A DNA stretch of 63,713 nucleotides from Oscillospiraceae bacterium. GTDB lineage: Bacteria; Bacillota; Clostridia; Oscillospirales; Oscillospiraceae. The stretch covers positions 1 to 63,713 of the forward strand of contig JAFYHU010000090.1 of NCBI GenBank assembly GCA_017538965.1, read 5' to 3'. Positions 303 to 15,591 of this stretch are shown here, piece after piece. The first letter of the stretch is position 1; every line of letters begins with the position of its first letter. The translations under genes were made by a program, and so were the position numbers. The notes under the pieces were generated by a model. The model worked only from the letters and a program-made list of their open reading frames with translations. It did not search any database and had not been told where the DNA came from.

Positions 303-497
303 TCAGTCATAGTTATAGTTTAATATTACTCCCGTACAGTTCACACATACATATGGCATGAAGGGACACGGCTGAGGTGTTTCGCAACTGCAATAATCTA
401 TCGCAGTATTATCGGTATCAATCTCTTCAAATCCGCCCGACACCTTGTCGAGCAGTTCATCGTTCAGGACGACTTTTTTATCTTTTCTGTTTTCCAT
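303..497 (-). CDS. class A double-glycine leader peptide (orphan RiPP/bacteriocin-like precursor)
   Basis: A 64-residue peptide. Residues 1-22 are a leader (MEN start, LNDELLDKVSGG at 11-22) of the double-glycine type, which C39-peptidase transporters normally cleave after the GG. The 42-residue core is acidic and carries five cysteines including CSC and a CxxC near the C-terminus. The start at 497 is chosen over an upstream in-frame ATG at 515 because GGAGG lies 8 nt before it and the sister peptides begin MEN or MGN. It is the only gene of block 1, between a promoter at 538-566 and a terminator at 132-161. No transporter or modifying enzyme lies nearby, so the fate of the core is unknown. 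Leader recognition is firm; a bacteriocin role is inference. Confidence 0.8.
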   Translation of the reverse strand: MENRKDKKVVLNDELLDKVSGGFEEIDTDNTAIDYCSCETPQPCPFMPYVCVNCTGVILNYNYD

Positions 498-537
498 GAT
501 AAAGCCTCCGATCAAAGAGTTTTCCTATTATGCTCAC

Positions 538-566
538 AGTGTAGCACAGCTTCTGTCACAAAACAA
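538..566 (-). promoter_or_regulatory. sigma-A-type promoter of peptide block 1
   Basis: Minus strand: -35 TTGTTT (561-566), 17-nt spacer, -10 TACACT (538-543). The spacer (TGTGACAGAAGCTGTGC) is nearly identical to those of the promoters at 10924-10952 and 13940-13968, so the three blocks share one control sequence. The spacer holds a near direct repeat TGTGA-N7-TGTG that could bind a regulator. Confidence 0.75.
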
Positions 567-574
567 GCACACAA

Positions 575-775
575 TGAAGCGCCGCGGAGCGGCGCAGAGA
601 GGAGAGTGGAGAGTGGAGAGTGGAGATTTGCCGCTGCGGCGGGGAGAGCGGAGCGATCTGGGGATCGCTCCCTACGGCTTCCCGCGCGTCAGGATGCTCC
701 CTACGGCGCGCTCCAAAGGAGACGGCAGGGGCGCCTGCGGGCGCGGGGAGGGCGGACGACGGAGCTCTTCCGTTT
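575..775 (+). repeat. about 200-bp mosaic dispersed repeat, copy 1 (left of AbiE-like module)
   Basis: Contains purine-rich GAGAGTGGAGAGTGGAGA runs, the palindrome GGAGCGATC-N4-GATCGCTCC (650-671), CTACGG repeats and a G+C-rich tail. It matches 2238-2416 almost base for base, apart from an extra 29-bp internal duplication bounded by CTCCCTACGG. The two copies are in the same orientation and bracket the toxin pair at 810-2176. Confidence 0.85.
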
Positions 776-809
776 AAGTCGCAGAGACAGATTTCTTGGC
801 TCGAGGAGA

Positions 810-1514
810 TTATATGAATGCTTCGATGTACAATTTTACAGCATGATAAACTTCTTCGAAAGAGGGTTTGTCGACATCGCCCGAGAAACGGAACTTCTCA
901 TATGCGTGTTTTAATTCCTCGGTTCTGTGAAGAAAACCGTTAAAACAGTCTAAGGTCTTTCCGCTGTTTTCCAGTGCCTGCGTAATCGCTGATCTGTCGA
1001 GATCGAATGTCCTGGAAATGTAGTATAGATCCACAAGGTCTTTGATTCTCCTGAAAATCTTATCAGAAGAGATTACCAACAGCTTGTCAGCTATCATCTG
1101 GGCAGGAACAGCACCGCGAAAGCGAATTCCTTCTACCTCATATATCTTTGTCGGCGTGACGGGACGATTCACATCGACATCCATAGTAAACAGCATTTCA
1201 CCGGAAGAAGGATCTGTCAGTTCAAATCCGGCGGACCGGCTTTGACCGTACATTCTGTAAAGACTTACATTCAGATTGATGTTGCTTTTTGTGAGCGCAT
1301 TTTGGATGGATTCTGTCATCTGTTCAGCAGTCGGCGGAACATCGGTATTCCAGTTGGCATCAATGTCGACCGTATGCCGGGTTTCTTCGGGGTATCCAGC
1401 TTCTATCAGGCATGCCTTCAACACCATGGAGCCCTTGAAGCTGATTGGGATACCGCAATCATAAACAGCCTTCATCACACCATACATAAGTTTTTCTTCT
1501 GCAGTAATGATCAT
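810..1514 (-). CDS. AbiEii/AbiGii-type nucleotidyltransferase toxin
   Basis: A 234-residue protein resembling the AbiEii family of nucleotidyltransferase toxins, the toxic half of type IV toxin-antitoxin and abortive-infection systems. Visible features: GS at 28-29 inside KGSMVLKACL, and R46-x-T-x-D-I-D (46-52), the usual R-x-T-x-DID active-site layout. It lies 11 bp downstream of a DNA-binding partner (1526-2176) on the same strand, the usual antitoxin-then-toxin order. The pair would be transcribed from the autoregulated promoter at 2194-2222. Both genes lie between two direct repeats, suggesting acquisition as a unit. Family assignment is fairly secure; a phage-defence role is inferred from the family and from its location beside phage genes. 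Confidence 0.75.
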   Translation of the reverse strand: MIITAEEKLMYGVMKAVYDCGIPISFKGSMVLKACLIEAGYPEETRHTVDIDANWNTDVPPTAEQMTESIQNALTKSNINLNVSLYRMYGQSRSAGFELTDPSSGEMLFTMDVDVNRPVTPTKIYEVEGIRFRGAVPAQMIADKLLVISSDKIFRRIKDLVDLYYISRTFDLDRSAITQALENSGKTLDCFNGFLHRTEELKHAYEKFRFSGDVDKPSFEEVYHAVKLYIEAFI

Positions 1515-1525
1515 GCTGTTTCTCC

Positions 1526-2176
1526 TTAGTTATCATAGTATGCGATTGCTTCTTCTGCCAGAGTTTCGAATCTTTCCTGATACTCGGGGGCTACGGAAAT
1601 ACCGTTGAAACTGTCACCGTTGGAGTAGTAGTATCGGCTGACAGCTTCGGTAATACCCTGCATGTCTAAAATCGATTCGTTCGCAAGCGCATCAGACAAA
1701 GTTCTGTTAAAATCAGTATATCGCAATCCGTTCCTGCTGTCCACGCTGTAGGGACTGATATGATTTCCAAGGACAACGACACCGTTATATTGAGCAACAG
1801 AATCGTCTCCGTATACCCATACGATGTATTCATCACTGCGGCCGCCGAATCTCCCCTGACACATGAGCGCTTCATCCAAAGCGAAAACGACCGACTCTCC
1901 CAAGGTATCCCGGACCGCCTGAAGCCATGCAACGGCGCCAACGTATTCGCTCCGTTTGGGGAGATTCTTCTTTTGCGGATCATACTTTGGCAGTGCATTT
2001 GTCTTTCGATTAATCAGATCTTCCTGAATCCGTTGTTCCAGCAGATTCAAGATATAGTCCGGCGGCTTGCGCACACCAGTTTCCCAATTCTGAATGGTGC
2101 GAAAGGGAATCTGATATCTCGCGGCGAATTCACTTTGCGTATCGCCCAATTGTGTTCTCAATTCTCGAATGTTCAT
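1526..2176 (-). CDS. XRE-family DNA-binding protein, probable antitoxin partner of the AbiEii-like toxin
   Basis: A 216-residue protein. Residues 1-50 form a helix-turn-helix of the XRE type (RELRTQLGDTQSEFAARY then PFRTIQNWETGVRKPP); the remainder is an unrecognised domain likely to bind the toxin or neutralise it. The start is the ATG at 2176, with AGGTG 6 nt upstream; an ATG at 2182 is also possible. A near-perfect palindrome lies inside its promoter spacer, just upstream, so autorepression is likely. It differs from the classical AbiEi antitoxin (winged helix) and resembles the HTH partners often paired with stand-alone AbiEii-like toxins. The DNA-binding domain is clear; the antitoxin role is inferred from position. 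Confidence 0.7.
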   Translation of the reverse strand: MNIRELRTQLGDTQSEFAARYQIPFRTIQNWETGVRKPPDYILNLLEQRIQEDLINRKTNALPKYDPQKKNLPKRSEYVGAVAWLQAVRDTLGESVVFALDEALMCQGRFGGRSDEYIVWVYGDDSVAQYNGVVVLGNHISPYSVDSRNGLRYTDFNRTLSDALANESILDMQGITEAVSRYYYSNGDSFNGISVAPEYQERFETLAEEAIAYYDN

Positions 2177-2193
2177 ATTCATCACCTGCATAA

Positions 2194-2222
2194 AAAATAC
2201 ACCCATTGGGTGTATTTGTCAA
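2194..2222 (-). promoter_or_regulatory. promoter with built-in operator for the toxin-antitoxin pair
   Basis: Minus strand: consensus -35 TTGACA (2217-2222), 17-nt spacer, -10 TATTTT (2194-2199). The spacer is a palindrome, AATACACCCA-N-TGGGTGTATT (2196-2216), overlapping both promoter boxes. This is the expected layout for autorepression by the XRE protein that starts at 2176. Confidence 0.85.
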
Positions 2223-2237
2223 TGCCTATCTGTAAGT

Positions 2238-2416
2238 CATGAGGCGCGGGGAGAGCGCGCGGAGCGGCGCAGAGAGGAGAGTTGAGAGTGGAGAGTGGAG
2301 ATTTGCCGCTGCGGCGGGGAGAGCGGAGCGATCTGGGGATCGCTCCCTACGGCGCGCTCCAAAGGAGACGGCAGGAGAGCCTGCGGGCGCGGGGAGGGCG
2401 GACGGCGGGATGCAGG
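2238..2416 (+). repeat. mosaic dispersed repeat, copy 2 (right of AbiE-like module)
   Basis: Near-identical to 575-775, same orientation, with the palindrome at 2325-2346. It begins about 15 bp from the -35 box of the toxin-antitoxin promoter and ends 1 bp before the ImmA-like stop codon region, so the toxin pair is a discrete insert between direct repeats. Confidence 0.85.
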
Positions 2417-2417
2417 C

Positions 2418-2963
2418 TCAGAGCGGGGAGTTGACGAGGCGGAGGAAGTCCACGTATTCATTCCAGCGGTATTCCGCTGCCGTCTGGCTCAGGCCGAAGA
2501 AGTCCCGGATCTCGGCCGGTCTCCGGAAATCCTTCCGCGCGATGGCAAAGAAGGGGGCAAGGAAGGATGCGGCAAAATAGTCCGCCTCTTCCTCCATCAG
2601 CTTGTTTTCCGGCAGGAAATCCATATCGATTTCCAGGAAATGACCGGCGACGACGTGGCCGATCTCATGGGCGATCGTCCAGCGGATTCTGGCCGGGCTC
2701 CTGCCCTCTTCGTTGGCCGCGATCATATAGTGGTTCTTCTTCCGATCGTAGAATACGCATCCGTCCGGGTTTTTCAGGATCCTTACGATGTCTGCCGGTC
2801 TGCACTTATTTTTCACCGCAAGCTGCTCATAGCTTCTGTAGTAACAGGCGTAGATTTTCCCGATCAGGGCGACGGGATCAGCCGGGAAGACAAAGGGCGC
2901 GAAGCCCTCCCAATAGATCTTCATGACCGTCTCGTCGATGACCTTTTTAACAACCGTTCTCAT
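2418..2963 (-). CDS. ImmA/IrrE-family metallopeptidase
   Basis: A 181-residue zinc metallopeptidase of the ImmA/IrrE family. HEIGH at 99-103 supplies the two zinc-binding histidines and the catalytic glutamate; a third ligand is expected in EEEADYFAASFLAP (about 125-138). Members such as ImmA of ICEBs1 cleave a phage or ICE repressor to trigger induction. The start at 2963 is chosen because its ATG overlaps the stop codon of the upstream repressor (ATGA), whereas the longer reading frame would overlap that gene by 60 nt. The partner is therefore the XRE protein at 2960-3292. Together they form the immunity module of the neighbouring prophage-like region. Confidence 0.85.
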   Translation of the reverse strand: MRTVVKKVIDETVMKIYWEGFAPFVFPADPVALIGKIYACYYRSYEQLAVKNKCRPADIVRILKNPDGCVFYDRKKNHYMIAANEEGRSPARIRWTIAHEIGHVVAGHFLEIDMDFLPENKLMEEEADYFAASFLAPFFAIARKDFRRPAEIRDFFGLSQTAAEYRWNEYVDFLRLVNSPL

Positions 2964-3292
2964 TCGTCCCTGAACGCATCCGCAAATCCCGCGCGGATAA
3001 TCTTCATCGCCTGCTCCCACTCGTCATGCGACATGTTCTGCCGCGCCCTGTGAAGGCTGATGAAGTCCTCGTCCATCATCTGGTCGGCCGGCTTTTCCAC
3101 GCCGGTATTCCCGTACAGATAGTCGGTTGACACATTGAAATACTTCGCCAGCGCGACGACCTTTTCCGAGCTGGGGCTGTTGGTCCGGATCTTCCGGAGC
3201 GAGGCGGGAGAGAAATTCAGATCCCGTTCCACCCGGGCAATCGTGACACCTTTCTTTCTGGCAAGCATGCTGATTCTGTCATACATGTCCAT
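2960..3292 (-). CDS. XRE-family repressor, prophage immunity type
   Basis: A 110-residue protein with an N-terminal helix-turn-helix (residues about 5-62: ARKKGVTIARVERDLN, SPASLRKIRTNSPSSEKV, then ALAKYFNVSTDYLYG, the standard end of XRE/Cro-CI domains in Firmicutes phages). The C-terminal 45 residues are acidic and would contact the ImmA-type protease encoded immediately downstream with a 4-nt overlap. RBS AGGTG lies 5 nt before the ATG. It reads divergently from the rightward promoter at 3341-3369, which it probably represses. Function as the lysogeny repressor follows from this ImmR-ImmA-like layout. Confidence 0.85.
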   Translation of the reverse strand: MDMYDRISMLARKKGVTIARVERDLNFSPASLRKIRTNSPSSEKVVALAKYFNVSTDYLYGNTGVEKPADQMMDEDFISLHRARQNMSHDEWEQAMKIIRAGFADAFRDE

Positions 3293-3340
3293 AGTTTCAC
3301 CTGATTTGAAAAATTTTAGTAATTGATTGCTAATTTCATA

Positions 3341-3369
3341 TTGACTTTACGAATCTTTTATGGTATCCT
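3341..3369 (+). promoter_or_regulatory. rightward early promoter candidate
   Basis: TTGACT (3341-3346), 17-nt spacer, TATCCT (3364-3369), reading toward the small gene at 3455. A second -10-like TATAAT lies at 3408-3413 with a weak -35. It is placed opposite the repressor gene, as an early promoter would be. Confidence 0.6.
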
Positions 3370-3454
3370 GCTTCACGGTAGTAGTAATTCTTTCCTGCGA
3401 TTGCTATTATAATAGGAACATCTGTGAAAGTCAAGAAAAATTCAGGAGGGCAGC

Positions 3455-3613
3455 ATGAAAACGAATCAGAGAAAATCGTCGGAGCCGGAAGACAGCGAGA
3501 TCATGATGGTGAAGAAGATCAAAAAAGTGATTGCCAGGGGCAATCATGCGGAAGTGAAGAGGCAGGCGGACGGAAGCTTCCGGGTCTATGAAGTGAAAAA
3601 GTCCGTGCAGTAA
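3455..3613 (+). CDS. small conserved phage-type protein of unknown function
   Basis: A 52-residue, lysine-rich protein (begins MKTNQRKSSEPEDSE, ends FRVYEVKKSVQ). RBS AGGAGG lies 6 nt before the ATG. It is the first gene rightward of the immunity region and follows the promoter candidate at 3341-3369. Its C-terminal half (RGNHAEVKRQADGSFRVYEV) reads like a beta hairpin. Small basic proteins at this position are common in Clostridia prophages. I do not recognise a function. Coding status is supported by the RBS, promoter and position. Confidence 0.6.
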   Translation: MKTNQRKSSEPEDSEIMMVKKIKKVIARGNHAEVKRQADGSFRVYEVKKSVQ

Positions 3614-3919
3614 AACAAAAGATATGCCGTCGGCGAAGCGGCGCCGGCGAAGGACCAATCGGGGTCGGCAGACAGGTTTCTGTGAAAGCAGAAGCGGTCT
3701 GCCGGCCCTGGTTTTTTTTGCGGGAAAAGGGCGCCTGCGGGCGCAGGGTTTGCGGAGCGATCTGGGGCAGCAGGCTCGGATCGTCGCACGCTACCCGCGC
3801 GTCAGGATGCTCCCTACGGGGTGCTGTTTTTTTGCAAAAAAAATTTTTTAACCCGGAAACAGACCTTCCGGGTTAAGCGGTAATCTCAGCGCAGCGAAAC
3901 AGGAAAGGAGGGAGAAAGC
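3614..3919. repeat. noncoding stretch of degenerate mosaic repeat plus hairpin
   Basis: Holds a variant of the GGAGCGATCTGGGG repeat (from about 3757, interrupted by an insertion), the GCGCCTGCGGGCGC motif and the CGCGCGTCAGGATGCTCC motif seen also at 690 and 3796. At 3848-3876 is an 11-bp perfect hairpin (TTAACCCGGAA / TTCCGGGTTAA) flanked by T-rich sequence; on the minus strand it would make a good intrinsic terminator. No gene seen. Confidence 0.65.
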
Positions 3920-4237
3920 GTGACAGCGACGGAACGGCGGCAGGAGATCATAAACGTTCTCATCAGCCGCAGACATGCGACGGCCGGCGAGCTTGCCGCA
4001 GAGTACGGCGTGAGCGAGCGGACGATCCGGTCTGACCTGTCCGTGCTGACATGCGAGTATCCCATTGAACCTGTTTTCGGCAAGTACGGCGGCGGATTCC
4101 GACTGGCCGAGTGGTTCCGCCCCGGCAGAAAGGTCCTTGCCCGGGAGCAGGCGGATGCGATCCGGAAAGCTGCGCAGTTTCTGGACGGCAAAGATCGGCA
4201 GGCGCTTCTGAGCATCCTGGCACAATTCTCGAATTAA
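3920..4237 (+). CDS. DeoR/HTH_11-type DNA-binding protein
   Basis: A 105-residue protein that starts with GTG, with AAAGGAGGGAG 8 nt upstream. Residues about 5-60 form a winged helix-turn-helix of the HTH_11/DeoR type (RRQEIINVLISRRHATAGEL, AEYGVSERTIRSDLSVL, then a wing with GKYGGGFRL). There is no WYL or sugar-phosphate domain, only a short helical tail (LAREQADAIRKAAQFLDGKD), so it is a minimal DNA-binding protein. Proteins like this head the replication module of many Clostridia prophages. It lies 19 bp upstream of the DUF6291-like gene and is probably an early regulator. The DNA target is unknown. Confidence 0.7.
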   Translation: MTATERRQEIINVLISRRHATAGELAAEYGVSERTIRSDLSVLTCEYPIEPVFGKYGGGFRLAEWFRPGRKVLAREQADAIRKAAQFLDGKDRQALLSILAQFSN

Positions 4238-4256
4238 GAAAGGAAGTGAAATCGAC

Positions 4257-4616
4257 ATGGAAGAATCTTCGGCCCTGACGCGGATCACCTTTTTCCGCTC
4301 CTACTGGGATGCGGAGCAGCAGATGGAAACCCGGCGCGACAGACTTTCCTTTCTCGAAGGCCTGCTGTTCTATGCCTTCGAAGGGGAAATTATTCGGATG
4401 ACGCCGGCGGCATATCTGCTCTTCACGGTCATAAAACCGCACATTGATATCAGCAAAAAGCGCTCTGCCGCCGGGAAAACCGCGAGAAATTCCTCACCGG
4501 CAATGCCCGGAACCGGCGGCTTTTCCCGGGATTTTGCTCAGACAGGCTGTGGAAACAATAAGAATAAGAATAAGAATGAGAATGAGAATAAAGAATGGAG
4601 AATTCATTATGACTGA
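4257..4616 (+). CDS. DUF6291-like phage replication protein with Asn-Lys/Asn-Glu linker
   Basis: A 119-residue protein. The N-terminus (TFFRSYWDAEQQMETRRDRL, then LEGLLFYAFEGEI) matches the helical DUF6291 domain found in Firmicutes phage replication modules, next to DnaC-like loaders. Near the C-terminus a (AATAAG/AATGAG)n DNA repeat at 4555-4596 encodes alternating Asn-Lys and Asn-Glu, a low-complexity linker common in this family. RBS GGAAGTG lies upstream of ATG 4257. The stop codon overlaps the start of the ATPase gene by 8 nt, indicating translational coupling. The domain that usually follows the linker is missing, so the protein is short for the family. Its precise role in replication initiation is not known. 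Confidence 0.6.
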   Translation: MEESSALTRITFFRSYWDAEQQMETRRDRLSFLEGLLFYAFEGEIIRMTPAAYLLFTVIKPHIDISKKRSAAGKTARNSSPAMPGTGGFSRDFAQTGCGNNKNKNKNENENKEWRIHYD

Positions 4617-5307
4617 CTCTTTGGTTTTGGATGCTTATGACCTCGGGGGCGTGGACTGTCCGGAGTGCGGGAACAGCGGGATGGTCACCTGGGTCGGCGA
4701 AGAGGGCATGCTGTATTCCCGCACCTGCCGCTGCATGAAGAAGCGCATCGCCCTGCGGCGCATCCGCCGGAGCGGCATGAGCGATCTGCTGCGCCGGTAC
4801 CGCTTTCAAAGCTACCGGGCCGACACGCCCGAGCAGGAGAAGATCCTCCGCCTGGCGCGCCGCTTCGCCGCGGAGGACGAGGGCTGGTTCTACATCTTCG
4901 GGCAGAGCGGCAGCGGGAAGAGCCACATCTGCACCGCCATCTGCGGCGCGCTGATCGGGCGGGACCGGGATGTTTACTACATGCCCTGGCGGGACGAGAG
5001 CACGACGCTGAAGGCGCTGGTCACGGACGCGGCGGCATATATGAAGCGGATGAAGCTGCTGAAGCACGCGGAGATTCTGTATATCGACGACTTCCTGAAG
5101 GGCGGCGACACGGACGCGGACATCCGCCTGGCCTACGAGATTCTGAACTACCGCTACAACGACAAGGCGCTGCGGACGATCGTGTCGAGCGAGATGACGC
5201 CGGAGACGCTGCTGCGCCGGGACGAGGCCCTGGGCGGCCGCATCTATGAGCGCGCACGCGGTTATATTCTCAAGGCCCCGCCGGTCAATCAGAGATTTGA
5301 GAGGTGA
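4609..5307 (+). CDS. DnaC/IstB-like helicase-loader ATPase
   Basis: A 232-residue AAA+ ATPase resembling DnaC and phage helicase loaders. An N-terminal zinc-binding module is suggested by CPEC (17-20) and CRC (40-42); Walker A is GQSGSGKS (98-105) and Walker B is LYIDDF (157-162). The start at 4609 is chosen because GGAG lies 10 nt upstream and the ATG overlaps the preceding stop; the longer frame would run through the neighbour's linker. It would load the host replicative helicase at the phage origin. Its position between the DUF6291-like gene and the late regulator is typical. Confidence in family is high; helicase-loading activity is inferred from family. Confidence 0.85.
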   Translation: MTDSLVLDAYDLGGVDCPECGNSGMVTWVGEEGMLYSRTCRCMKKRIALRRIRRSGMSDLLRRYRFQSYRADTPEQEKILRLARRFAAEDEGWFYIFGQSGSGKSHICTAICGALIGRDRDVYYMPWRDESTTLKALVTDAAAYMKRMKLLKHAEILYIDDFLKGGDTDADIRLAYEILNYRYNDKALRTIVSSEMTPETLLRRDEALGGRIYERARGYILKAPPVNQRFER

Positions 5308-5310
5308 GAA

Positions 5311-5547
5311 ATGGATTGCTGGAAGAGACTTGCATGCGCCATCGCCCTGCAGGCGATGGAAGACTATCTGATGCTCGAGCCTGAGGAAGATCGCGAAGAG
5401 CTCGAAACGTTTTTCCGATCCGCTTTCTTCGCAGAGCTCTGCGAGCTCGATGCGGAGCGGCTGATCATCATGCTGAAGGAGGAGGAAAATCCGGAAGATG
5501 GAATTCTGCGATGCGAAGAGCTTTTTGAATCAGGTGAATTATTCTGA
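5311..5547 (+). CDS. hypothetical acidic phage protein
   Basis: A 78-residue protein, strongly acidic and helical (LEPEEDREELETFFRSAFF). It starts 4 bp after the DnaC-like stop with GAGGTGAG upstream, and its last 50 nt overlap the start of the DUF1492-like gene in another frame. I recognise no domain. Small acidic proteins in this position are common in Clostridia phage replication blocks. Its place in a tight gene string with proper RBS spacing is the only evidence that it is expressed. Confidence 0.6.
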   Translation: MDCWKRLACAIALQAMEDYLMLEPEEDREELETFFRSAFFAELCELDAERLIIMLKEEENPEDGILRCEELFESGELF

Positions 5548-5878: not shown

Positions 5879-5924
5879 AAAAGTGGAAAAATGCCACTAC
5901 CCCCGTTTGCTATACTGAACGCAA

Positions 5925-6132: not shown

Positions 6133-6135
6133 TCA

Positions 6136-7958: not shown

Positions 7959-8008
7959 AAAAAACAGGCTGCTCCGAAGAACAGCCCAACTAAATCGTAT
8001 TCTGTTCA

Positions 8009-8338
8009 TCACGCGGCTGCATAGATCATCTTCCTCTCCTGTTTCACGGTCTCTCTGAATCGCAGCTGGCTGCGCCGATCTGTCGGCTCTTCCATCGAAT
8101 CAAGCGTAACGAGGTCGATCGTTGTTCCCAGCGCCTCTTCCAGGTCGCTGTACAGCCCTCCGAGCTTGAGCAGGCTGTCGATTCCGGTACCGGAGATATC
8201 TACCAGCAGGTCAATATCACTGTCCGCAGTCGCTTCTCCCCTGGCATAGGAACCGAAAAGGAAAACCGCCGGAAGGCCGTATTTCTTTGCAACCGGTGCA
8301 ATGCGACGCGATATTTCTTCAATTGTATAAGGAAGCAT
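8009..8338 (-). CDS. MNT-type nucleotidyltransferase (MntA-like), cargo gene
   Basis: A 109-residue minimal nucleotidyltransferase. The active-site signature GSYARGEATADSDIDLLVD spans about 29-47 (G-S...S-D-I-D). MntA-type proteins usually act as antitoxins that AMPylate a HEPN toxin. No HEPN partner is encoded beside it: upstream is the divergent gene at 8440 and downstream is the scaffold-like gene. The start at 8338 is preferred (GGAAGGCGG upstream) over an in-frame ATG at 8362 that has its RBS too close. It has its own good promoter at 8396-8424. It is oriented against the phage genes, so it is best read as a moron. Family is certain, role open. Confidence 0.85.
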   Translation of the reverse strand: MLPYTIEEISRRIAPVAKKYGLPAVFLFGSYARGEATADSDIDLLVDISGTGIDSLLKLGGLYSDLEEALGTTIDLVTLDSMEEPTDRRSQLRFRETVKQERKMIYAAA

Positions 8339-8395
8339 TTCTACACCGCCTTCCGTAATCATTCCTGCACTGTCTTTTCCTGTTGCAGCGTATTC

Positions 8396-8424
8396 AGTAT
8401 AACGCAGTCCAAATTATCAGTCAA
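8396..8424 (-). promoter_or_regulatory. promoter of the MNT gene
   Basis: Minus strand: TTGACT (8419-8424), 17-nt spacer, TATACT (8396-8401), ending about 58 nt upstream of the ATG at 8338. It lies inside the leader of the divergent gene at 8440. Confidence 0.8.
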
Positions 8425-8439
8425 GAACAAGGAGGAAAA

Positions 8440-8898
8440 ATGAATTCCATTATTGCAGCCATCAAAAAGCTCTTCAGCCTTGAGGGTGATCCGAGGACGA
8501 TCGCCGAGGCGCTGGACGCGGCGGAGCTGCCGGATCCCGGAGGCCTGCCGGAGGTAAGCTCTGCCGACAAGGACAAAGGCCTGCGGGTCAACAGCTCCGG
8601 CGCATGGGAGGCCGCAGACGGCGTCGTGTTTCCGGAAACGCTCACCTATGCATCCGGCCTTGTCGAACTCCGGGCGGTCTCCTACAGCGACATGTCTTCG
8701 ACGCGATGGAAAACCTGCCGGTTTACCGCGCTGCCGATCACGGACGCAAGCTGGAAGGGCAAAACCATTATGGGCAACCGGAGCACGGGCGCGTGGAACA
8801 TCGTGGACTTTCCGGAAGGCCTGCCGGCAGTGACCAGCGCCGACAACGGGAAGATCCTGAAGGTTGTTGATGGGGCGTGGGCTGTGGCAAGTCCGTAA
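8440..8898 (+). CDS. head-fibre/decoration-like protein with repeated SADxGKxLxV motif
   Basis: A 152-residue protein. An N-terminal amphipathic stretch (MNSIIAAIKKLFSLEGDPRT) is followed by two copies of a motif: GLPEVSSADKDKGLRVNSSG near residue 35 and GLPAVTSADNGKILKVVDGA near the C-terminus. This SADNGK-type repeat is widespread in surface and fibre proteins of Firmicutes phages, including head-fibre proteins. RBS AAGGAGG lies 6 nt before ATG 8440. It lies between scaffold and capsid, which favours a capsid decoration or fibre role over a tail one. It could alternatively be a tail-associated adhesin fragment. Confidence 0.55.
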   Translation: MNSIIAAIKKLFSLEGDPRTIAEALDAAELPDPGGLPEVSSADKDKGLRVNSSGAWEAADGVVFPETLTYASGLVELRAVSYSDMSSTRWKTCRFTALPITDASWKGKTIMGNRSTGAWNIVDFPEGLPAVTSADNGKILKVVDGAWAVASP

Positions 8899-9388
8899 AC
8901 ACCTCATGAGTCACGGGGCGCGACGCGTTAAGCGAACGTGCCGTGAATCACGGGGACATGAGTCACGGGGACAGGTTCCTTGACTCATTTTCCCCGACTT
9001 CGGCGGTTGCAGTTACGCGGAATTGCAGCTGGTCCCTCGCACAGACCTTCCCCCGCCGCGTTTTATTAAAGAGTGTAACTCCCCTTTATTGTCATTGCGA
9101 AACCAGTTCGCAAACTGGTTGTGGCAATCCGCATCCCCAACAATGAATCACGGTGACAGGTTGACTCATTCGCTCCCTCGTGCGTTTTCCCGTTTCGCGG
9201 CCAGGGAACCACCTGCCCCTAACCGACCACTGCTGCCGCGAATAAAATGTTTCAATGTTTCTCTCACTTAAAACGCGGGACGGTACTGCGTTGGTGCGAG
9301 GAAAAACTTCCTCTCCCGCGTAATCATATACCCCCCGATCGGGGGCATGCGCATTAAAACAAAATAAAAATGAAGGAGATAAAAACTT
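8899..9388. repeat. noncoding repeat cluster before the capsid gene
   Basis: About 490 bp without a supported gene. It contains a GGGGCGCGACGCGTTAAG motif (also near 20594), two copies of an ATGAATCACGGGGACAG-type phrase, a long repeat (9016-9142: GCGGAATTGCAGCTG to GTTGTGGCAATCCGCATCCC, with the GTCATTGCGA hairpin) also found at 20761-20887, 21085-21186 and 30578-30672, and the inverted TTCGCGGCC...GCCGCGAA element (9194-9242). The last 60 bp are the capsid leader with RBS GAAGGAGA. Confidence 0.75.
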
Positions 9389-10327
9389 ATGCCTGCTATT
9401 GAAAGACAGAATATGGGCGGACTTATTCCCGAGCCCGTATCCCGCGAGATTTTCCAGGGTGTCGTGGAGCAGAGCGCCGTGCTGCGCGCGGGCCGCAAGC
9501 TCCCCAACATGACCGCGAAGACCCAGGCGATCAACGTCCTGGACATGCTGCCCCTGGCCTACTGGGTGGACGGCGACACCGGCTTCAAGCGGACTTCTTC
9601 CCAGGCTTGGGACAAGAAGAAGCTCTATGCCGAGGAGCTCGCCGTCATCATCCCGATTCCCGAGGCGGTCCTCGCGGACACCAACTATGACATCTGGGGC
9701 GAGGTCCGGCCGCGTATTGTGGAGGCCATGGGCCGCCGCGTGGACGAGGCGATCCTTTTCGGGACCGGCAAGCCCTCGACCTGGCGCGACGACATCCTTA
9801 CCACGGCCACCGCGGCCGGTACCGTCGTCACCGAGACCGGCGACCTCTTTGCCGACATCATGGGCCCGGGCGGCCTGATCGCGAAGGTGGAGGACAACGG
9901 CTATCTGCCGACCCGCATCCTGAGCGCGATCTCGATGCGCTCGAAGCTGAGAGGTCTGACGGATCAGGTCGGGCATCCGCTGTTCCTGCACGGGCTGCAG
10001 GGCCCGGCGCAGTATGACCTGGACGGCATCCATCTGGACTTCCCGATGAACGGGGCCTGGGATGCGGAAGAGGCCCTGATGATCGCCGGCGACTTCAGCC
10101 AGCTCGTGTACTCCATTCGTCAGGATGTGACCTACAAGGTGCTGACCGAGGCCACCATCGTCGATCCGGCCACCCGCGAGGTCGTGTACTCGCTGGCGCA
10201 GCAGGACATGGTCGCGCTGCGTGCGGTCATGCGCCTCGGCTGGGAGATCCCCAACCCCGTGAGCGCCTACCGGTCCACGCTGGATGCCTACAGCCCGTTT
10301 GCGGTGTATGTGCCGGCGTCCGAGTAA
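9389..10327 (+). CDS. HK97-fold phage major capsid protein
   Basis: A 312-residue major capsid protein that would build the icosahedral head. The N-terminus (MGGLIPEPVSREIFQGVVEQ, SAVLRAGRKLPNM) and the E-loop/A-domain features (AYWVDGDTGFKRTSSQAWDK, then a conserved EELAVIIPIPEAVL) are typical of HK97-type capsid proteins. There is no long N-terminal delta domain, consistent with a separate scaffold. RBS AAGGAGAT lies 9 nt before the ATG. It appears full length. Downstream, the connectors begin only at 11002 because a minus-strand peptide block (10340-10952) has been inserted between capsid and connector. Confidence 0.88.
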   Translation: MPAIERQNMGGLIPEPVSREIFQGVVEQSAVLRAGRKLPNMTAKTQAINVLDMLPLAYWVDGDTGFKRTSSQAWDKKKLYAEELAVIIPIPEAVLADTNYDIWGEVRPRIVEAMGRRVDEAILFGTGKPSTWRDDILTTATAAGTVVTETGDLFADIMGPGGLIAKVEDNGYLPTRILSAISMRSKLRGLTDQVGHPLFLHGLQGPAQYDLDGIHLDFPMNGAWDAEEALMIAGDFSQLVYSIRQDVTYKVLTEATIVDPATREVVYSLAQQDMVALRAVMRLGWEIPNPVSAYRSTLDAYSPFAVYVPASE

Positions 10328-10339
10328 GTAAAACCGACG

Positions 10340-10376
10340 AAAACCCGCCGGACGACGGCAAAGTCGTTCCGGCGGG
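10340..10376 (-). terminator. intrinsic terminator of peptide block 2
   Basis: Minus strand: CCCGCCGG-A-ACGAC / GTCGTCCGGCGGG stem with 6-nt loop followed by TTTT. It is homologous to the terminator at 12182-12223 of block 3; in block 3 the same sequence is also the 3' coding part of the tail gene at 11934. About 90 bp here (10340-10430) are thus a duplicated gene end. Confidence 0.85.
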
Positions 10377-10464
10377 GATACGGAAGATTTTATGTTGACG
10401 CTGAGGTTAGAGGAACTATGGGAAAGTTCAGAGTGCAAAGACGGAGGTCGTCCCCTGTCCGGTC

Positions 10465-10656
10465 TTAGTTTATATAGACGCCGCAGTATATGCAGATCAG
10501 TTTGCCGTCATCCCCCCGGGTCCATTCATGCCCCACGCCGCTCAGATTCCATTGACATGTTGTGTTGTCGTCCGGGTCATCACCGTAAACTCCGCCGGAC
10601 ACCTTGTCCAGCAGTTCGTCGTTCAGAGCAACTTTTTTAGCTTTTTTGTTTTCCAT
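10465..10656 (-). CDS. class A double-glycine leader peptide
   Basis: A 63-residue peptide. Residues 1-22 form the leader (MENKKAKKVALNDELLDKVSGG with the GG at 21-22). The 41-residue core contains DDPDD, HEW and a C-terminal CxxCG (CIYCG), a half zinc-ribbon-like pattern shared with the peptide at 13457-13648. RBS GGAGG lies 9 nt upstream. It is the second gene of block 2, downstream of the class C peptide at 10722-10886. Spacer repeats flank it on both sides. It is probably exported after leader cleavage, but by machinery not in this window. Confidence 0.8.
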   Translation of the reverse strand: MENKKAKKVALNDELLDKVSGGVYGDDPDDNTTCQWNLSGVGHEWTRGDDGKLICIYCGVYIN

Positions 10657-10671
10657 GACAAGAACCTCCGA

Positions 10672-10721
10672 TTAAAGTTCAAAGTGCTATGACGGGATGA
10701 AACGAGGAACTGACCCCCGGT
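10672..10721 (-). repeat. inter-peptide spacer repeat, block 2 copy
   Basis: AAAGTTCAAAGTGCTATGACGGGATGAAACG-type sequence between the two peptide genes of block 2, written here as AAAGTTCAAAG then GACGGGATGAAACG. A second, partial copy (AAAGTTCAGAGTGCAAAGAC then CGTCCCCTGTC) lies at about 10429-10463 on the other side of the class A gene. Same family as the spacers at 12777-13735. Confidence 0.7.
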
Positions 10722-10886
10722 TCAGTGAAGATCTATAAGCCCGCTGTAGAATTGTCCGGCCCCTCCGGCGACCTTTTCCATATCATCGTCGCTCAAAGCT
10801 ACTTTCGCTTCTTCAACAACTTCTTCCGCTTTTTCAGCTTCTTCTTTGCTCTTAACATCTTTGTTTTGCTTATCAAAGAGTTTCAT
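10722..10886 (-). CDS. class C double-glycine leader peptide
   Basis: A 54-residue peptide. The 42-residue leader (MKLFDKQNKDVKSKEEAEKA, then VEEAKVALSDDDMEKVAGG) is charged and helical; the core after GG is only 12 residues (AGQFYSGLIDLH). The start at 10886 is chosen because GGGAGG lies 8 nt upstream and the sister gene at 13727-13900 has the same start; the longer frame would begin inside the promoter. It is the first gene of block 2, 37 nt from the -10 box. The leader is nearly identical to the sister peptide but the core differs, a usual sign of a leader-directed secretion system. Function unknown. Confidence 0.75.
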   Translation of the reverse strand: MKLFDKQNKDVKSKEEAEKAEEVVEEAKVALSDDDMEKVAGGAGQFYSGLIDLH

Positions 10887-10923
10887 GACTGCATCCTCCC
10901 GAAAATATTTTCTTTTTAAGCAT

Positions 10924-10952
10924 ATTTTATCACAGCTTTCGTCACAAAACAA
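10924..10952 (-). promoter_or_regulatory. sigma-A-type promoter of peptide block 2
   Basis: Minus strand: -35 TTGTTT (10947-10952), 17-nt spacer TGTGACGAAAGCTGTGA, -10 TAAAAT (10924-10929). Spacer and upstream GTGTGAT are identical to those of block 3. It reads away from the plus-strand connector gene at 11002. Confidence 0.85.
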
Positions 10953-11001
10953 TCACACAAAATAATACAAAAACGGGGAGACGGGAAAGGAGAAACGAAA
11001 C

Positions 11002-11385
11002 GTGATCGCAGATTATGAGTTTTATCGGGGCAGCTATCTCGGAACTCTCCTGACGGAGGAGAACTTCCCGAAGTACGCGCTGCGCGCAGACTCCTATCTC
11101 GACCTGCTGACCACCGGACGTTACCGGTACGACTGCCTCCCGGCCGGAGCCGCGGAGGCAGTCAGGATGGCGGAATGCGCAATTGCGGAGCTCTGCCTGA
11201 ACCTGGAACAGGCGGAGCTGCAGAGCGACGCCGCGTGGAAGGTGCAGGGCGAGAAGGTGGGAAACCACAGCGTGACCTATCGGAACAATGCGGAGATCGC
11301 CGAGCAGACAGAGAGACAGATCCGCAAAACCGCGGCACGCTATCTGCTCCGCTGGGGACTTTTATACAGAGGAATGCCATTATGA
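11002..11385 (+). CDS. head-tail connector protein
   Basis: A 127-residue, mainly helical protein. The pattern YEFYRGSYLGTLLTEENFPK, YALRADSYLDLLTTGRY, then AVRMAECAIAELCLNLEQAE is that of Gp6/Gp15-type head-completion adaptors, which sit on the portal and join head to tail. It starts with GTG, with AAAGGAG 8 nt upstream. Its stop overlaps the next gene (ATGA). It would normally follow the capsid gene directly; block 2 peptides intervene. Confidence in the connector call comes from helical pattern plus position. Confidence 0.7.
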   Translation: MIADYEFYRGSYLGTLLTEENFPKYALRADSYLDLLTTGRYRYDCLPAGAAEAVRMAECAIAELCLNLEQAELQSDAAWKVQGEKVGNHSVTYRNNAEIAEQTERQIRKTAARYLLRWGLLYRGMPL

Positions 11386-11834
11386 TTGCTCCGCATACTG
11401 CAAGCTTAATCAATCAGCACGGAGAGAATACCTATCTCACGATTCTGCGGGGCGTCATGATCCAGGACATGGAACGGAAGTCGGTCCTTCAGGCCGGCGA
11501 CTATGACTCGAGCTATACGAAGATTTTCATTCCGTTCGGGGTAGACGCAAGAAATGCGGACGGAGAACCCGTTTCGTATCTGCTGCCGAAGGAGTATGCG
11601 AAGAGCATGGAGCCGGAGCAGCACTGGACACTGCAGGCGGACGGGGATGAAGCCGGGCGAAGCAGCTTTTTCGTGAAGGGTGAGATTCCGGAGGCGTGCA
11701 GCCTGGCCGAGGCGAGGGAACTTTATGATGGGGTTTTCATTGTAACGACCGTGAGCACGAGAGACTACGGCCAACCGGGCATGCAGCATTGGGAAGCGGC
11801 GTCCTCACAAGCTCTGTATCGTTCGCTTCCCTGA
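11382..11834 (+). CDS. DUF6751-like head-tail joining protein with repeat-derived C-terminus
   Basis: A 150-residue protein, translationally coupled to the connector by a 4-nt overlap. Features such as NTYLTILRGVMIQDMERKSV, the SYTKIFIPFGVDARN strand region and the DGVFIVTTVSTRDYG segment fit small head-closure proteins in Clostridia phages (DUF6751-like). The last 11 or so residues (SSQALYRSLP) and the stop codon lie inside a dispersed repeat whose inverted copy is at 31400-31509, so the native C-terminus has been replaced or extended. Role as a head-tail joining protein is inferred from gene order. Confidence 0.6.
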   Translation: MIAPHTASLINQHGENTYLTILRGVMIQDMERKSVLQAGDYDSSYTKIFIPFGVDARNADGEPVSYLLPKEYAKSMEPEQHWTLQADGDEAGRSSFFVKGEIPEACSLAEARELYDGVFIVTTVSTRDYGQPGMQHWEAASSQALYRSLP

Positions 11835-11908
11835 AGCGTCAGGAAAGCTCACTCACTCCGCTGCTCGTCCTTTCCGATGAAAATCCACTTCGTTGGGTTT
11901 TTCATCGG
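11797..11908. repeat. dispersed repeat with terminal hairpin, copy inside and after the joining gene
   Basis: Starts GCGTCCTCACAAGCTC, includes CTCCGCTGCTCGTCCTTTC, and ends in a hairpin CCGATGAAAA...TTTTTCATCGG (11874-11908). An inverted copy with the same order and its own hairpin lies at 31400-31509; related hairpin arms also occur near 20886-20957. Confidence 0.8.
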
Positions 11909-11933
11909 TATAAAGTGGGAAAAGATTGAAATT

Positions 11934-12299
11934 ATGAATATTCGAAATATCTATGAGTGGATTTGCTCGGCGCCGATGCTGGTGGGCGAGAAAGTCAATC
12001 TGGACTATCTGCCTGCCAATGCCGGATGGTCCGTGACTACACCGAGAACGAAGACGAACACCGATATTCTGGGAAACAGCTGGGAATCTGTGGAAGTCAC
12101 CATCACACGGAGAAAGAGCGTTTCGGGGAATGCGGACCGGCTGAACCTGCTGGATGAAATGGATGCTCTCCGCGTCTGGGCAAAAGAAAACCCGCCGGAC
12201 GGCGGAAGGGTCGTCCCGGCGGGAATATCGAAACCGAAAAGTCGCAGTGCAGCAGGTACGGAAGATTTTGCGCTGACACTGAGGGTGGAGGAAGGATAA
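11934..12299 (+). CDS. phage tail-completion/minor structural protein
   Basis: A 121-residue protein in the position of a tail terminator or minor capsid protein. It begins MNIRNIYEWICSAPMLVGEK, followed by a beta-rich segment (WESVEVTITRRKSVSGNADR) and a helix (LLDEMDALRVWAKEN). I do not recognise a family with certainty. The RBS is weak. The C-terminal segment from PPDGGRVVPAGIS onward is encoded by DNA that on the other strand is the terminator of peptide block 3, and this 3' end is duplicated after the capsid gene (10340-10430). The gene end and the peptide block are therefore physically fused. Confidence 0.55.
   Translation: MNIRNIYEWICSAPMLVGEKVNLDYLPANAGWSVTTPRTKTNTDILGNSWESVEVTITRRKSVSGNADRLNLLDEMDALRVWAKENPPDGGRVVPAGISKPKSRSAAGTEDFALTLRVEEG
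12182..12223 (-). terminator. intrinsic terminator of peptide block 3, inside a tail gene
   Basis: Minus strand: CCCGCCGGGACGACCC...CGCCGTCCGGCGGG stem followed by TTTTCTTTT (12182-12190). It lies within the coding sequence of the plus-strand gene at 11934-12299, so convergent transcripts overlap there. Confidence 0.8.
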
Positions 12300-12322
12300 G
12301 AAGGCGGGAAACGGCAATAGAC

Positions 12323-12559
12323 TTATCTTGCTTGGATATAGGGGCACAGATCCGGATGGCAAAGCTCTGTATCAACGTAGATACAAGTTGGATCATATTG
12401 ACACATAGGTGGAGGACCCAAATGTTCCTCTCTTCCGCCTGCCACCTGGTCCAGCTCGTCATCGGTAAGGAGTATGCCGGCCTTTTTGATGGCCTCGCGC
12501 TTCTCTTCCTTGGTGGCTGCAGATTCAACCTGGGTTTTGAGTTTTCCTGTGAGTTTCAT
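12323..12559 (-). CDS. class B double-glycine leader peptide, cysteine-rich core
   Basis: A 78-residue peptide. The 42-residue leader (MKLTGKLKTQVESAATKEEK, then LLTDDELDQVAGG) is almost identical to that at 13145-13363. The 36-residue core has four cysteines spaced C-x5-C, then C-x4-C, with several prolines. RBS GAGAGG lies upstream of ATG 12559. It is the last gene of block 3; 24 nt separate it from the preceding peptide and the terminator follows about 100 nt later. The leader points to C39-type processing; the core could be disulfide-bonded or cysteine-modified. No modifying enzyme is present in the window. Confidence 0.8.
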   Translation of the reverse strand: MKLTGKLKTQVESAATKEEKREAIKKAGILLTDDELDQVAGGREEHLGPPPMCQYDPTCIYVDTELCHPDLCPYIQAR

Positions 12560-12583
12560 AATGAGAACCTCTCTTTTATTGAA

Positions 12584-12763
12584 TTAACCTTGATTTACCC
12601 AATAAAATCTTGGTCTGTTACCCGTTGGCTCGCCTAGCCCGCCTGCAACCATGTCCAGTTGATCATCGCTGAGCAATATAGTGGCCTGCTCCACAGCCTC
12701 TTCCTTCTCTTCCCCAATGGTTTTGGATTTTACCTGTTCCTTCAGGTTTTTTGTCAGTTTCAT
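12584..12763 (-). CDS. class B double-glycine leader peptide, short core
   Basis: A 59-residue peptide. Residues 1-42 are a class B leader (MKLTKNLKEQVKSK, then LLSDDQLDMVAGG), more diverged than the other two. The core is 17 residues (LGEPTGNRPRFYWVNQG), basic and aromatic, with no cysteine. The start at 12763 aligns with the other MKLT starts and has GGAGG upstream; the longer frame adds repeat-derived residues. It is the fifth gene of block 3 and directly precedes 12323-12559 without the usual spacer repeat. Function unknown. Confidence 0.75.
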   Translation of the reverse strand: MKLTKNLKEQVKSKTIGEEKEEAVEQATILLSDDQLDMVAGGLGEPTGNRPRFYWVNQG

Positions 12764-12836
12764 GATAAGAACCTCCGTATTAAAGTTCAAAGTTCAAAGT
12801 TCAAAGACGGAGAACCGTCCCCTGTCTGGTCCAAGA

Positions 12837-13064
12837 TCAGTCGGTACAGACACAATAGCCATCATACTCATATATCGTATGCTGATCGTTGATAACGATA
12901 TCGGGCGATGCGCAATACTTGCATACAGCATAATCTCCTGTGCTTGACCACACCATACTGCAGCTTTTGCACTCATAATCATACACGATCGTTACGCCTT
13001 CGCCGCCGCTGACCTTCTCCAGCAGCTCGTCATTCAGTTTGGCTTTCTCATTTTTGTTTCCCAT
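12837..13064 (-). CDS. class A double-glycine leader peptide with three CxC/CxxC pairs
   Basis: A 75-residue peptide. Leader residues 1-21 (MGNKNEKAKLNDELLEKVSGG); core of 54 residues with six cysteines arranged CKSC, CKYC and CVC, the first two forming a zinc-ribbon-like pair of CxxC knuckles separated by 13 residues. RBS GGAGG lies 9 nt upstream. It is the fourth gene of block 3. The core is the longest of the nine. It could bind metal or carry disulfides; the sequence alone does not decide. The leader class is clear. Confidence 0.8.
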   Translation of the reverse strand: MGNKNEKAKLNDELLEKVSGGEGVTIVYDYECKSCSMVWSSTGDYAVCKYCASPDIVINDQHTIYEYDGYCVCTD

Positions 13065-13144
13065 GGTAAGAACCTCCGATCATAATTCAAAGTTCAGACT
13101 TCAGAATTCAAAGACGGGATGAAAACGCACAATCGTCCCCTGTT

Positions 13145-13363
13145 TCATTGCTCATAAGGCGATATAAAAGGCGGCTTTTCGCTCTCATACTCGTCGTCTA
13201 TCCAGATTACTCCTCCGCCCGGATTCGTCCCCCATCTTCCGCCGGACACCTGGTCCAACTCGTCGTCGGTGAGGAGCATGCCGGCCTGCTTGATGGCCTC
13301 TCTCTTCTCTTCCTTCGTGGCTGCGGATTCAACTTGGATTTTGAGTTTACCTGTGAGTTTCAT
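13145..13363 (-). CDS. class B double-glycine leader peptide, Gly/acidic core
   Basis: A 72-residue peptide. The 42-residue leader ends LLTDDELDQVSGG. The 30-residue core (begins RWGTNPGGGVIWIDDEYESE, then KPPFISPYEQ) has no cysteine. The start at 13363 matches the other class B peptides; the longer frame would add repeat-encoded residues. It is the third gene of block 3, with spacer repeats on both sides. Its leader is over 90% identical to that at 12323-12559 while the cores share nothing, showing rapid core change behind a fixed leader. Confidence 0.8.
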   Translation of the reverse strand: MKLTGKLKIQVESAATKEEKREAIKQAGMLLTDDELDQVSGGRWGTNPGGGVIWIDDEYESEKPPFISPYEQ

Positions 13364-13456
13364 GATGAGAACCTCTCTTTCAAAGCTCAAAGTTCAGAGT
13401 GCAAAATGCAAAGATAGGATGAAACGCGGAAGCGTCCCCTGTTTCACTGCATCTCG

Positions 13457-13648
13457 TCATCCGTTTGGTCCTCTCAAGAGGCCGCAATTAAAGCACGTCT
13501 GAGACCCGCCAATTTGCGTGACCCATTCATGCCTTGGATCGTCCGGATCATCTGGTGAGCACGCTTCGTCGTCGTAAGCGGTTCCTCCGCCGGAAACCTT
13601 GTCCAGCAGTTTGTCATTCAGAACAACTTTTTCTTTTTTGTTTTCCAT
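13457..13648 (-). CDS. class A double-glycine leader peptide with HEW and CxxCG
   Basis: A 63-residue peptide. Leader residues 1-21 (MENKKEKVVLNDKLLDKVSGG); core of 42 residues with PDDPDDPRHEW and a later CFNCG. The DDPDD, HEW and CxxCG elements match the core at 10465-10656, the strongest core similarity among the nine and evidence that blocks 2 and 3 share an ancestor. Start at 13648 with GGAGG 9 nt upstream. It is the second gene of block 3. Confidence 0.8.
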   Translation of the reverse strand: MENKKEKVVLNDKLLDKVSGGGTAYDDEACSPDDPDDPRHEWVTQIGGSQTCFNCGLLRGPNG

Positions 13649-13726
13649 GATGAGAACCTCCGATTTAAAGTTCAAAGTTCAGAGTTTAAAGTTTAAAGAT
13701 GGGATGAAACGCGGAAGCGTCCTGTT

Positions 13727-13900
13727 TCATCCAGGATCCTTGCTGATTAACCCACTCTTGATTTGACCACCAATACCACCAGCGACCTTCTCCATATCGT
13801 CATCGCTCAGGGCCATTTTCGCTTCTTCAACAACTTCTTCTGCTTCTACTGCTTCTTTTTTGCTCTTAACATCTTTGTGTTGCTTATCACAGAGTTTCAT
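13727..13900 (-). CDS. class C double-glycine leader peptide, first gene of block 3
   Basis: A 57-residue peptide. The leader (MKLCDKQHKDVKSKKEAVEA, then EEAKMALSDDDMEKVAGG, 42 residues) is about 85% identical to that at 10722-10886; the core is 15 residues (IGGQIKSGLISKDPG). GGGAGG lies 8 nt before the ATG at 13900. As in block 2, the class C gene is the one closest to the promoter (13940-13968). The upstream leader region also matches block 2, including GACTGCATCCTCCC read on the plus strand. Confidence 0.75.
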   Translation of the reverse strand: MKLCDKQHKDVKSKKEAVEAEEVVEEAKMALSDDDMEKVAGGIGGQIKSGLISKDPG

Positions 13901-13939
13901 GACTGCATCCTCCCTGATAACAATTTCCTATTTGAGCAC

Positions 13940-13968
13940 ATTCTATCACAGCTTTCGTCACAAAACAA
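13940..13968 (-). promoter_or_regulatory. sigma-A-type promoter of peptide block 3
   Basis: Minus strand: -35 TTGTTT (13963-13968), 17-nt spacer TGTGACGAAAGCTGTGA, -10 TAGAAT (13940-13945). It lies 25 nt from the start of the plus-strand tail-tube gene and reads away from it. Confidence 0.85.
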
Positions 13969-13993
13969 TCACACGAGGAAAGGAGTTTTTGTT

Positions 13994-15569: not shown

Positions 15570-15591
15570 CGCAAAGCCCCCTCTCGAAAAA

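Follow-up and report, generated by a model that had tools for sequence, protein, structure and literature searches.

Double-glycine (GG) leaders and the C39 and NHLM exporters are typical of bacteriocins. In the pln system of Lactiplantibacillus plantarum and the blp system of pneumococcus, many GG-leader genes lie in scattered operons that share repeat-bearing promoters, two-component control and a C39 exporter. Prochlorosin precursors are encoded at scattered sites; their leaders are conserved and their cores hypervariable, and a shared machinery encoded at a distance serves them all. Sublancin has a GG leader and is encoded on phage SPbeta together with its own exporter and modifying enzymes. 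The subject here is a set of nine small GG-leader genes on a 63,713-nucleotide contig of an Oscillospiraceae bacterium (JAFYHU010000090.1, contig C87 of a 3.39-Mb draft genome in 91 contigs), the whole of which is called the window. The leftmost 23 kb of the window is a siphophage-like element by its PHROGs matches, and the nine genes lie in it in three blocks, each headed by a 33-bp motif that recurs ahead of GG genes elsewhere in the genome and the genus. It is probable that the blocks are moron-type cargo cassettes in an Oscillospiraceae-type prophage, driven by a regulon of the host and probably exported by the NHLM system of the host.

Other described systems share parts of this picture. 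The cited passages treat pln and blp as class II bacteriocin regulons (PMC2714321, PMC4739728). In Synechococcus elongatus, the passages cited describe EbfG1-4 as small GG proteins whose secretion needs the C39 peptidase protein PteB and which contribute to a biofilm trait (PMC4997328). An archaeal GG/C39 island is read, in the part of the source cited, as a toxin or quorum-sensing system (PMC6393860), and CwpV of Clostridioides difficile is reported to be a surface protein that protects from phages (PMC4737114). NHLM 'bacteriocin' exporters, GG-leader wall-binding domains and phage precursor cassettes behind a host motif were not found joined in the open-access library searched.

The nine GG-leader genes and their upstream motif

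All nine genes lie on the minus strand where a preliminary description of this DNA had placed them, and each has a ribosome-binding site and a leader ending in V[SA]GG. In all nine, the leader has about 15-45 residues, a double-glycine-type end and hydrophobic positions before it. The three leader classes described earlier are recovered as class A (M[EG]N..LND.LL.KVSGG), class B (MKLT.KLK...) and class C (MKL[FC]DKQ...). A rule for GG genes, applied to the window, returns these nine genes only, against 0-3 matches in each of 20 first-order Markov shuffles of the window, so that chance open reading frames (ORFs) can be rejected.

W1 (303-497), with a class A leader and a 5-Cys core, is found at the margin of the element and close to the contig end. 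Two genes make up the block between the capsid and connector genes: W3 (10722-10886), which opens it with a class C leader and a 12-aa core, and W2 (10465-10656), which has a class A leader and a zinc-ribbon-like C..HEW..CxxC core with zinc-finger matches below cut-off. The six-gene block is opened by W9 (13727-13900; class C leader, 15-aa core) and continues with W8 (13457-13648; class A leader, C..HEW..CxxCG core), W7 (13145-13363; class B leader, 30-aa core without Cys), W6 (12837-13064; class A leader, 6-Cys zinc-ribbon-like core with HypA-type matches below cut-off), W5 (12584-12763; class B leader, 17-aa core) and W4 (12323-12559; class B leader, Cys4 core). The cores had been called unrelated, which is right for most of them, in that they do not align, and wrong for the Cys-rich types, which recur. 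One of these, the Cys4 type (pattern C-x5-C-x5-8-C-x4/5-C, by reading), is combined with class A, class B and hybrid A/B leaders, and the class C cores of W3 and W9 have GQ-x2-SGLI in common.

A separate copy of the motif (GTGAYNGTTNTGTGACARANNCTGTGNTANNNT), with its repeated TGTGA boxes, stands at the start of every one of the three blocks. The copies lie on the minus strand at 538-570 before W1 (48.0 bits), at 10924-10956 for the capsid-connector block (45.2 bits) and at 13940-13972 for the six-gene block (45.2 bits). These are all the sites in the window, where the next best position reaches 1.2 bits. The motif was found by comparing the regions upstream of the first genes of the blocks, and a genome search with 29 bp of it, allowing up to three mismatches, gives 15 sites, against none for the reversed pattern. 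A GG gene comes first at 12 of the 15, two of them (on C26 and C55) missed by the leader searches; of the other three sites, one precedes a protein of at least 454 aa and one a nucleotidyltransferase-type pair, and the third has no GG gene in first place. The nucleotidyltransferase-type pair, recognised by eye, follows a motif with two mismatches at C29:44813 (L204).

A matrix made from eight sites of this genome was applied to 1.49 Mb of loci outside the training set, including loci L039-L044 of the same genome. It gives 27 matches of at least 20 bits (23 after removal of places fetched twice), where shuffles average 0.2, and none in 322 kb of unrelated viral loci. A GG gene lies within 300 nt of 22 of the 27 (19 of the 23), a share that is biased upward by the choice of some of these loci for their GG or NHLM genes. 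Because the matrix-scanned loci were partly fetched for such genes, the genus-wide test is the fairer one. In this test, the consensus with up to three mismatches is present in 40 of the 102 genomes of the genus examined, the reversed control being empty in all, and 35 of 36 sites inspected (30 loci) start a GG gene, as read from the first ORF printed; the 36 are part of the genus-wide list, and L209, L216, L221 and L224 had been seen previously. Repeat-bearing and placed upstream of several GG operons, as in the pln and blp systems, the motif probably acts as a promoter. The four viral matches of a looser promoter pattern all come from the same tandem GTGATAC repeat, which is unrelated and not accompanied by a GG gene.

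Twenty-six GG proteins of the genome were compared with each other: nine from the window, nine from C76, four from C47 and four from C55. Their leaders are under purifying selection, to judge from the pooled proportions of synonymous and nonsynonymous differences between leader pairs (pS 0.477, pN 0.130), and the ORF is intact in all 26. Core pairs, in gapped alignment, nearly all have 44-63% nucleotide identity, with one pair at 76%. In W2 and the C76 gene C76g, 95% of the leader DNA is alike and 49% of the core DNA. C76g itself looks like the product of a deletion that joined a class C promoter to a class A gene. Of the core residues, 9.0% are Cys, against 0.13% of the leader residues; at least two Cys are present in 21 of the 26 cores and at least four in 16, and the core is net acidic in 24 of the 26 (7 of 9 within the window). 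With GG genes on C47, C55 and C76, plus one more on C26, the idea that the peptides belong to the phage only was rejected.

Between the GG genes, at 12790-13700 in the window and elsewhere, lie repetitive extragenic palindrome (REP)-like CAGGGGACG...CGT elements and arrays of the heptad TTTGAAC. The REP-like repeats were tried as the unit that defines a cassette and rejected, with 15 copies genome-wide and three in the window block, and the heptad is widespread (31 matches genome-wide) and hence not specific. Both may help cassette recombination. Because the fast-changing cores lie between conserved elements (promoter, leader and short repeats), cores and whole genes would be exchangeable, both between phage and chromosome and between phages. 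A terminator scan is not clearly above shuffles (8 against 4.2, standard deviation 2.1).

Phage setting and recurrence of the cassettes

PHROGs calls in the element comprise portal, major head protein, connector, tape measure, tail protein and terminase. The two-gene block lies between the major head protein gene (9389-10327, plus strand, phrog_10) and the head-tail adaptor, or connector, gene (11002-11385, plus strand, phrog_541). The six-gene block lies between a tail-completion-like gene (11877-12299, plus strand, in a gene order conserved in relatives) and a tail-tube-like gene (13994-14521, plus strand, phrog_3099, a family of unknown function). Both gaps hold blocks, as had been described, with the reservation that the tail-completion and tail-tube names come from the preliminary description and from gene order, no named PHROG standing behind either.

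In a goat-rumen genome of the same genus (L083), the capsid/connector gap is about 43 bp and the tail-completion/tube gap about 36 bp, measured between tblastn match ends, and in L046 the latter junction has about 97 bp. The same gaps in the window contain two and six GG genes. Both blocks have been inserted at junctions between late phage genes which a relative leaves empty. They have the features of morons, being extra genes that lie between phage genes, are absent from relatives and have their own promoter, the latter by motif only.

On C76, the phage region is present once more, as a degraded copy (tail-tube-like gene 94% identical, chaperone-like gene 97%, tail completion 92%), and the corresponding tail junction there holds an antisense GG block of its own, which differs from that of the window. 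This copy (L036 7962-15271) adjoins a region that is CODH/acetyl-CoA-synthase-like by eye, and eight GG genes lie in or near it. In a related phage (L081 6380-10010), the tail-completion/tube gap extends over 3.6 kb and is filled with minus-strand genes of host type (YdcF-like and nucleosidase-like by eye), and the 5' end of the tube gene is duplicated there.

The comparison with other phages covers 44 tube-bearing loci from viral and genome collections, ten of them, including three cut at or in the tube gene, with a tube identity of at least 76%. Antisense GG genes occur in four of the ten closest loci, five in total (L045, L047, L049 and two in L084). The preliminary description had named a lack of related peptides in any other genome among the results that would refute it, and such peptides are present, in these four phage loci and in the genus genomes. 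The motif stands ahead of all five genes, with 23.3 bits in L045 and L084 and 27.7 bits in L049 by the own-genome matrix, 22.9 bits for the second L084 gene by a refined matrix, and by alignment in L047. In the second L084 gene, the GG leader precedes a GW domain (21.7 bits, cut-off 21). The GG slot is nearly the same in L045 and L084 and holds a different GG gene in L049, in both cases beside homologous 281-aa genes (Bax-inhibitor-like in L084).

In the viral collection, in which records very near the window's own may be absent, the strict motif is found on the contig of L045 only. The strict class A leader DNA pattern has no match in viral contigs; a looser one matches 38 stretches with three ORF candidates, of which L114 and L130 are GG-like by eye. 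Neither the motif nor, by rule, a GG gene is present in the stretches fetched of the nearest isolated phages (Fontainebleau and FP_Lugh) and of record MT835625. Matches to the GG rule on the sense strand of L083, L091 and L092, and in the genus phage regions L161 and L169, were judged to be chance. The phage-associated GG proteins number 19 (nine in the window, five at the C76 tail junction and five in other phages), and a PHROGs search with ten of them gives nothing at E 0.01 or better and three weak matches at E 0.015-0.095.

The terminase large subunit gene of the window (21682-23289) is located at the far 3' end of the element, and in relatives beside the portal gene. No integrase was noticed in the element, and no search was aimed at integrases. 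Minus-strand toxin-antitoxin-like genes also lie in the element (14968-15620, 8009-8362, 17567-18131 and 810-2206); they are HicB/HicA, a nucleotidyltransferase, a PIN-like pair (by eye) and AbiEii with a helix-turn-helix protein. An explanation by passive hitch-hiking, in which host GG genes came by chance to lie in a decaying prophage that gathers antisense genes, with no benefit to phage or lysogen, takes its support from the displaced terL, the fragmentary state of the C76 copy, the lack of a noticed integrase and the presence of antisense HicB/HicA, nucleotidyltransferase and PIN-like genes. This explanation is improbable: phage contigs of other samples keep the motif and antisense GG genes at late-gene gaps, one slot holds different GG genes in different phages, the leaders are under purifying selection, and none of the 26 ORFs is broken.

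Export, control and the nature of the cargo

The genes had been described as orphans dependent on an exporter encoded elsewhere. The term orphan fits the window, since its contig has no C39 domain, and does not fit the genome, in which C39 domains occur on three other contigs, two within NHLM-type ABC proteins and the third, a partial one, on C13. An exporter is encoded elsewhere in the genome, as expected: C34 has NHLM_ABC1 at 933.8 bits (cut-off 853.3) and ABC2 at 741.8 bits (cut-off 709.4). The C34 set also has a weak HlyD-like protein, far below cut-off, a STAS protein and an adjoining GG-leader LysM protein. A second NHLM ABC1 stands at a contig edge on C63, with radical-SAM genes and its own Cys-rich precursors. 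This locus (L039, C63 1-7250) has two Nif11-like precursors with very Cys-rich short cores, one of which was tested and scores 32.7 bits (cut-off 32.3), and is a separate candidate for a ribosomally synthesized and post-translationally modified peptide (RiPP). The nine window leaders have no match to the NHLP model TIGR03793 and reach only 18.2 and 14.1 bits with TIGR03798 (Nif11; cut-off 32.3), and their membership in the NHLP or Nif11 families was rejected.

Within the genus, 14 of 20 NHLM regions have a GG gene by rule, and in 12 the gene is convincing by reading (LysM, CW_7 and other cores). In G194 (L187), a CxxC protein for which Pfam names no domain has the leader end ELLDKVSGG, as in class A, and lies about 840 bp from the exporter gene. 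NHLM is above cut-off in 63 of the 102 genus genomes, namely 38 of 40 with the motif and 25 of 62 without it (Fisher 5e-9). A response-regulator family, searched with a C34 protein, is present in 53 of the 102, again in 38 of the 40 and in 15 of the 62 (p 2e-13). Neither test takes account of kinship or of genome incompleteness.

These results suggest the following course of events. The host regulon promoter, of which each block has a copy, would drive transcription of the block in the direction opposite to the virion genes and is probably activated by a two-component response regulator. The GG leaders of the mini-protein precursors would then be cut, probably by the C39 domain of the host NHLM exporter, releasing cores of 12-54 aa outside the cell. 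The benefit is most likely a lysogenic conversion at or outside the cell surface, such as envelope decoration, competition or phage exclusion, and not a virion function.

A histidine kinase and a response regulator are encoded beside the NHLM locus. The kinase matches PF06580. For the two regulators tested, there is a match to Response_reg and a weak one to Trans_reg_C (25.0 and 17.0 bits, cut-off 26.2), and none to LytTR. A response regulator of this kind may bind the TGTGA repeats. Such a pair would also serve a pheromone-controlled GG regulon similar to pln and blp, with the short class C cores as autoinducers and the kinase-regulator pair activating all motif promoters. W3 and W9 do open their blocks with very short cores, the motif has repeated TGTGA boxes, and a regulator and a motif site are no more than 1 kb apart in G000:C34, G198:C39, G209:C26, G168:C27 and G172:C12. 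Even so, this form of control is unlikely, since the regulators without LytTR and the PF06580 kinase differ from those of pln and blp, and the class B/C leader profile matched this genome only, of 150 sampled family genomes.

The cargo had been proposed to be a RiPP or bacteriocin. None of the nine proteins matches an NCBIfam or Pfam bacteriocin or RiPP model above cut-off, although several weak matches of bacteriocin type occur below it (for example, TIGR01847 at 14.3 against 15.7). The cationic cores of class II bacteriocins are not seen, 24 of the 26 own-genome cores being net negative. No modifying enzyme was noticed by eye beside the blocks in the gene list, from which not every window gene was searched, and no immunity-like gene was noticed there by eye. 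The genome does have the radical-SAM plus NHLM locus on C63, with precursors of its own that have other leaders. That antimicrobial or modified cores are exported by the host and kill rivals of the lysogen would agree with fast-changing cores in arrays and with a regulon member in L230 that resembles a glycine-rich pore former by eye; for the cassettes as a whole it is doubtful, and some cores may still have a bacteriocin or pheromone role.

The recognisable cargo of the motif regulon elsewhere is mostly LysM, CW_7 and PepSY-like, partly by eye. LysM, CW_7, GW and PepSY domains score above cut-off behind the motif, and SH3-like and zinc-ribbon-like ones below it or by motif. PepSY-type cores with GG leaders are present behind the motif in L225 (44.4 bits, cut-off 24) and, by eye, in L232, L233, L207 and L218. 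Because the recognisable cargo is wall-binding or wall-acting, PepSY or zinc-ribbon-like, an envelope or extracellular role is favoured over a plain bacteriocin. A bolder and tentative proposal, somewhat less probable than its negation, is that, in this gut genus, exporter, two-component regulator and motif form a general 'mini-domain display' programme which dresses the surface and which temperate phages tap to remodel the envelope of the lysogen. LysM, CW_7, PepSY, GW, SH3-like and zinc-ribbon-like mini-domains would then be displayed, and the phage cassettes, as interchangeable units of promoter, leader and core placed antisense within the virion operon, could shut out phages or rivals.

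Several observations weigh against host-driven, host-exported cassettes. Besides the neglect of kinship and genome incompleteness in the co-occurrence tests, two motif-positive genomes (G170 and G178) have no NHLM above cut-off, and two (G166 and G178) are without the regulator family. The sites at C76:61515 and C29:44813 precede non-GG genes, and one of the 36 genus sites precedes a Sec-type secreted protein. GG cargo is confined to the closest relatives of the phage, with none by rule in the other 34 tube-bearing loci, and the L047 motif, with one base inserted and one deleted, gives no matrix match. The restriction of the class B/C leader profile to one sampled family genome, already noted, points the same way. 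No zinc-ribbon Pfam match of a window core is above cut-off, the AlphaFold model of W6, built with five sequences, is uninformative (mean predicted local distance difference test score 44.5), and the prophage may be defective.

Comparison with known systems

With its specificity, the motif can be used to predict which proteins are exported in many uncultured gut genomes and to spot phage-borne members of the set. Through the phage cassettes, viruses are linked to a bacterial secretion programme that is large and apparently undescribed, and of which function, regulator and exporter become directly testable.

Each described system resembles this one in part. Similar to prophage morons and sublancin, the accessory genes lie between phage genes, and they would be expressed in the lysogen. 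Unlike sublancin, the precursors travel alone, and the host would supply export and control. The conserved leaders and variable cores are also found in prochlorosins, from which the system differs in its phage setting and in Cys motifs that fit zinc ribbons or disulfides. As in NHLM/NHLP systems (TIGR03796, TIGR03797, TIGR03794), the genome has ABC1 and ABC2 above cut-off; unlike them, the nine leaders match no NHLP leader model, Nif11 stays below cut-off and the HlyD-like protein is far below it.

EbfG1-4 provide a precedent for GG proteins with a non-killing role, according to the passages cited (PMC4997328). They belong to another organism, their cores have no known domains, and phage is not mentioned in those passages (PMC4997328). 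The pln and blp regulons are similar in their scattered GG operons sharing a repeat-bearing motif, and the likeness would extend to two-component control and C39 export. Unlike pln and blp, the present system has an exporter of the NHLM two-ABC type, its tested regulators have no LytTR match, wall-binding, PepSY-like or Cys-rich mini-proteins predominate in its recognisable cargo, and operons of its regulon are carried by phages.

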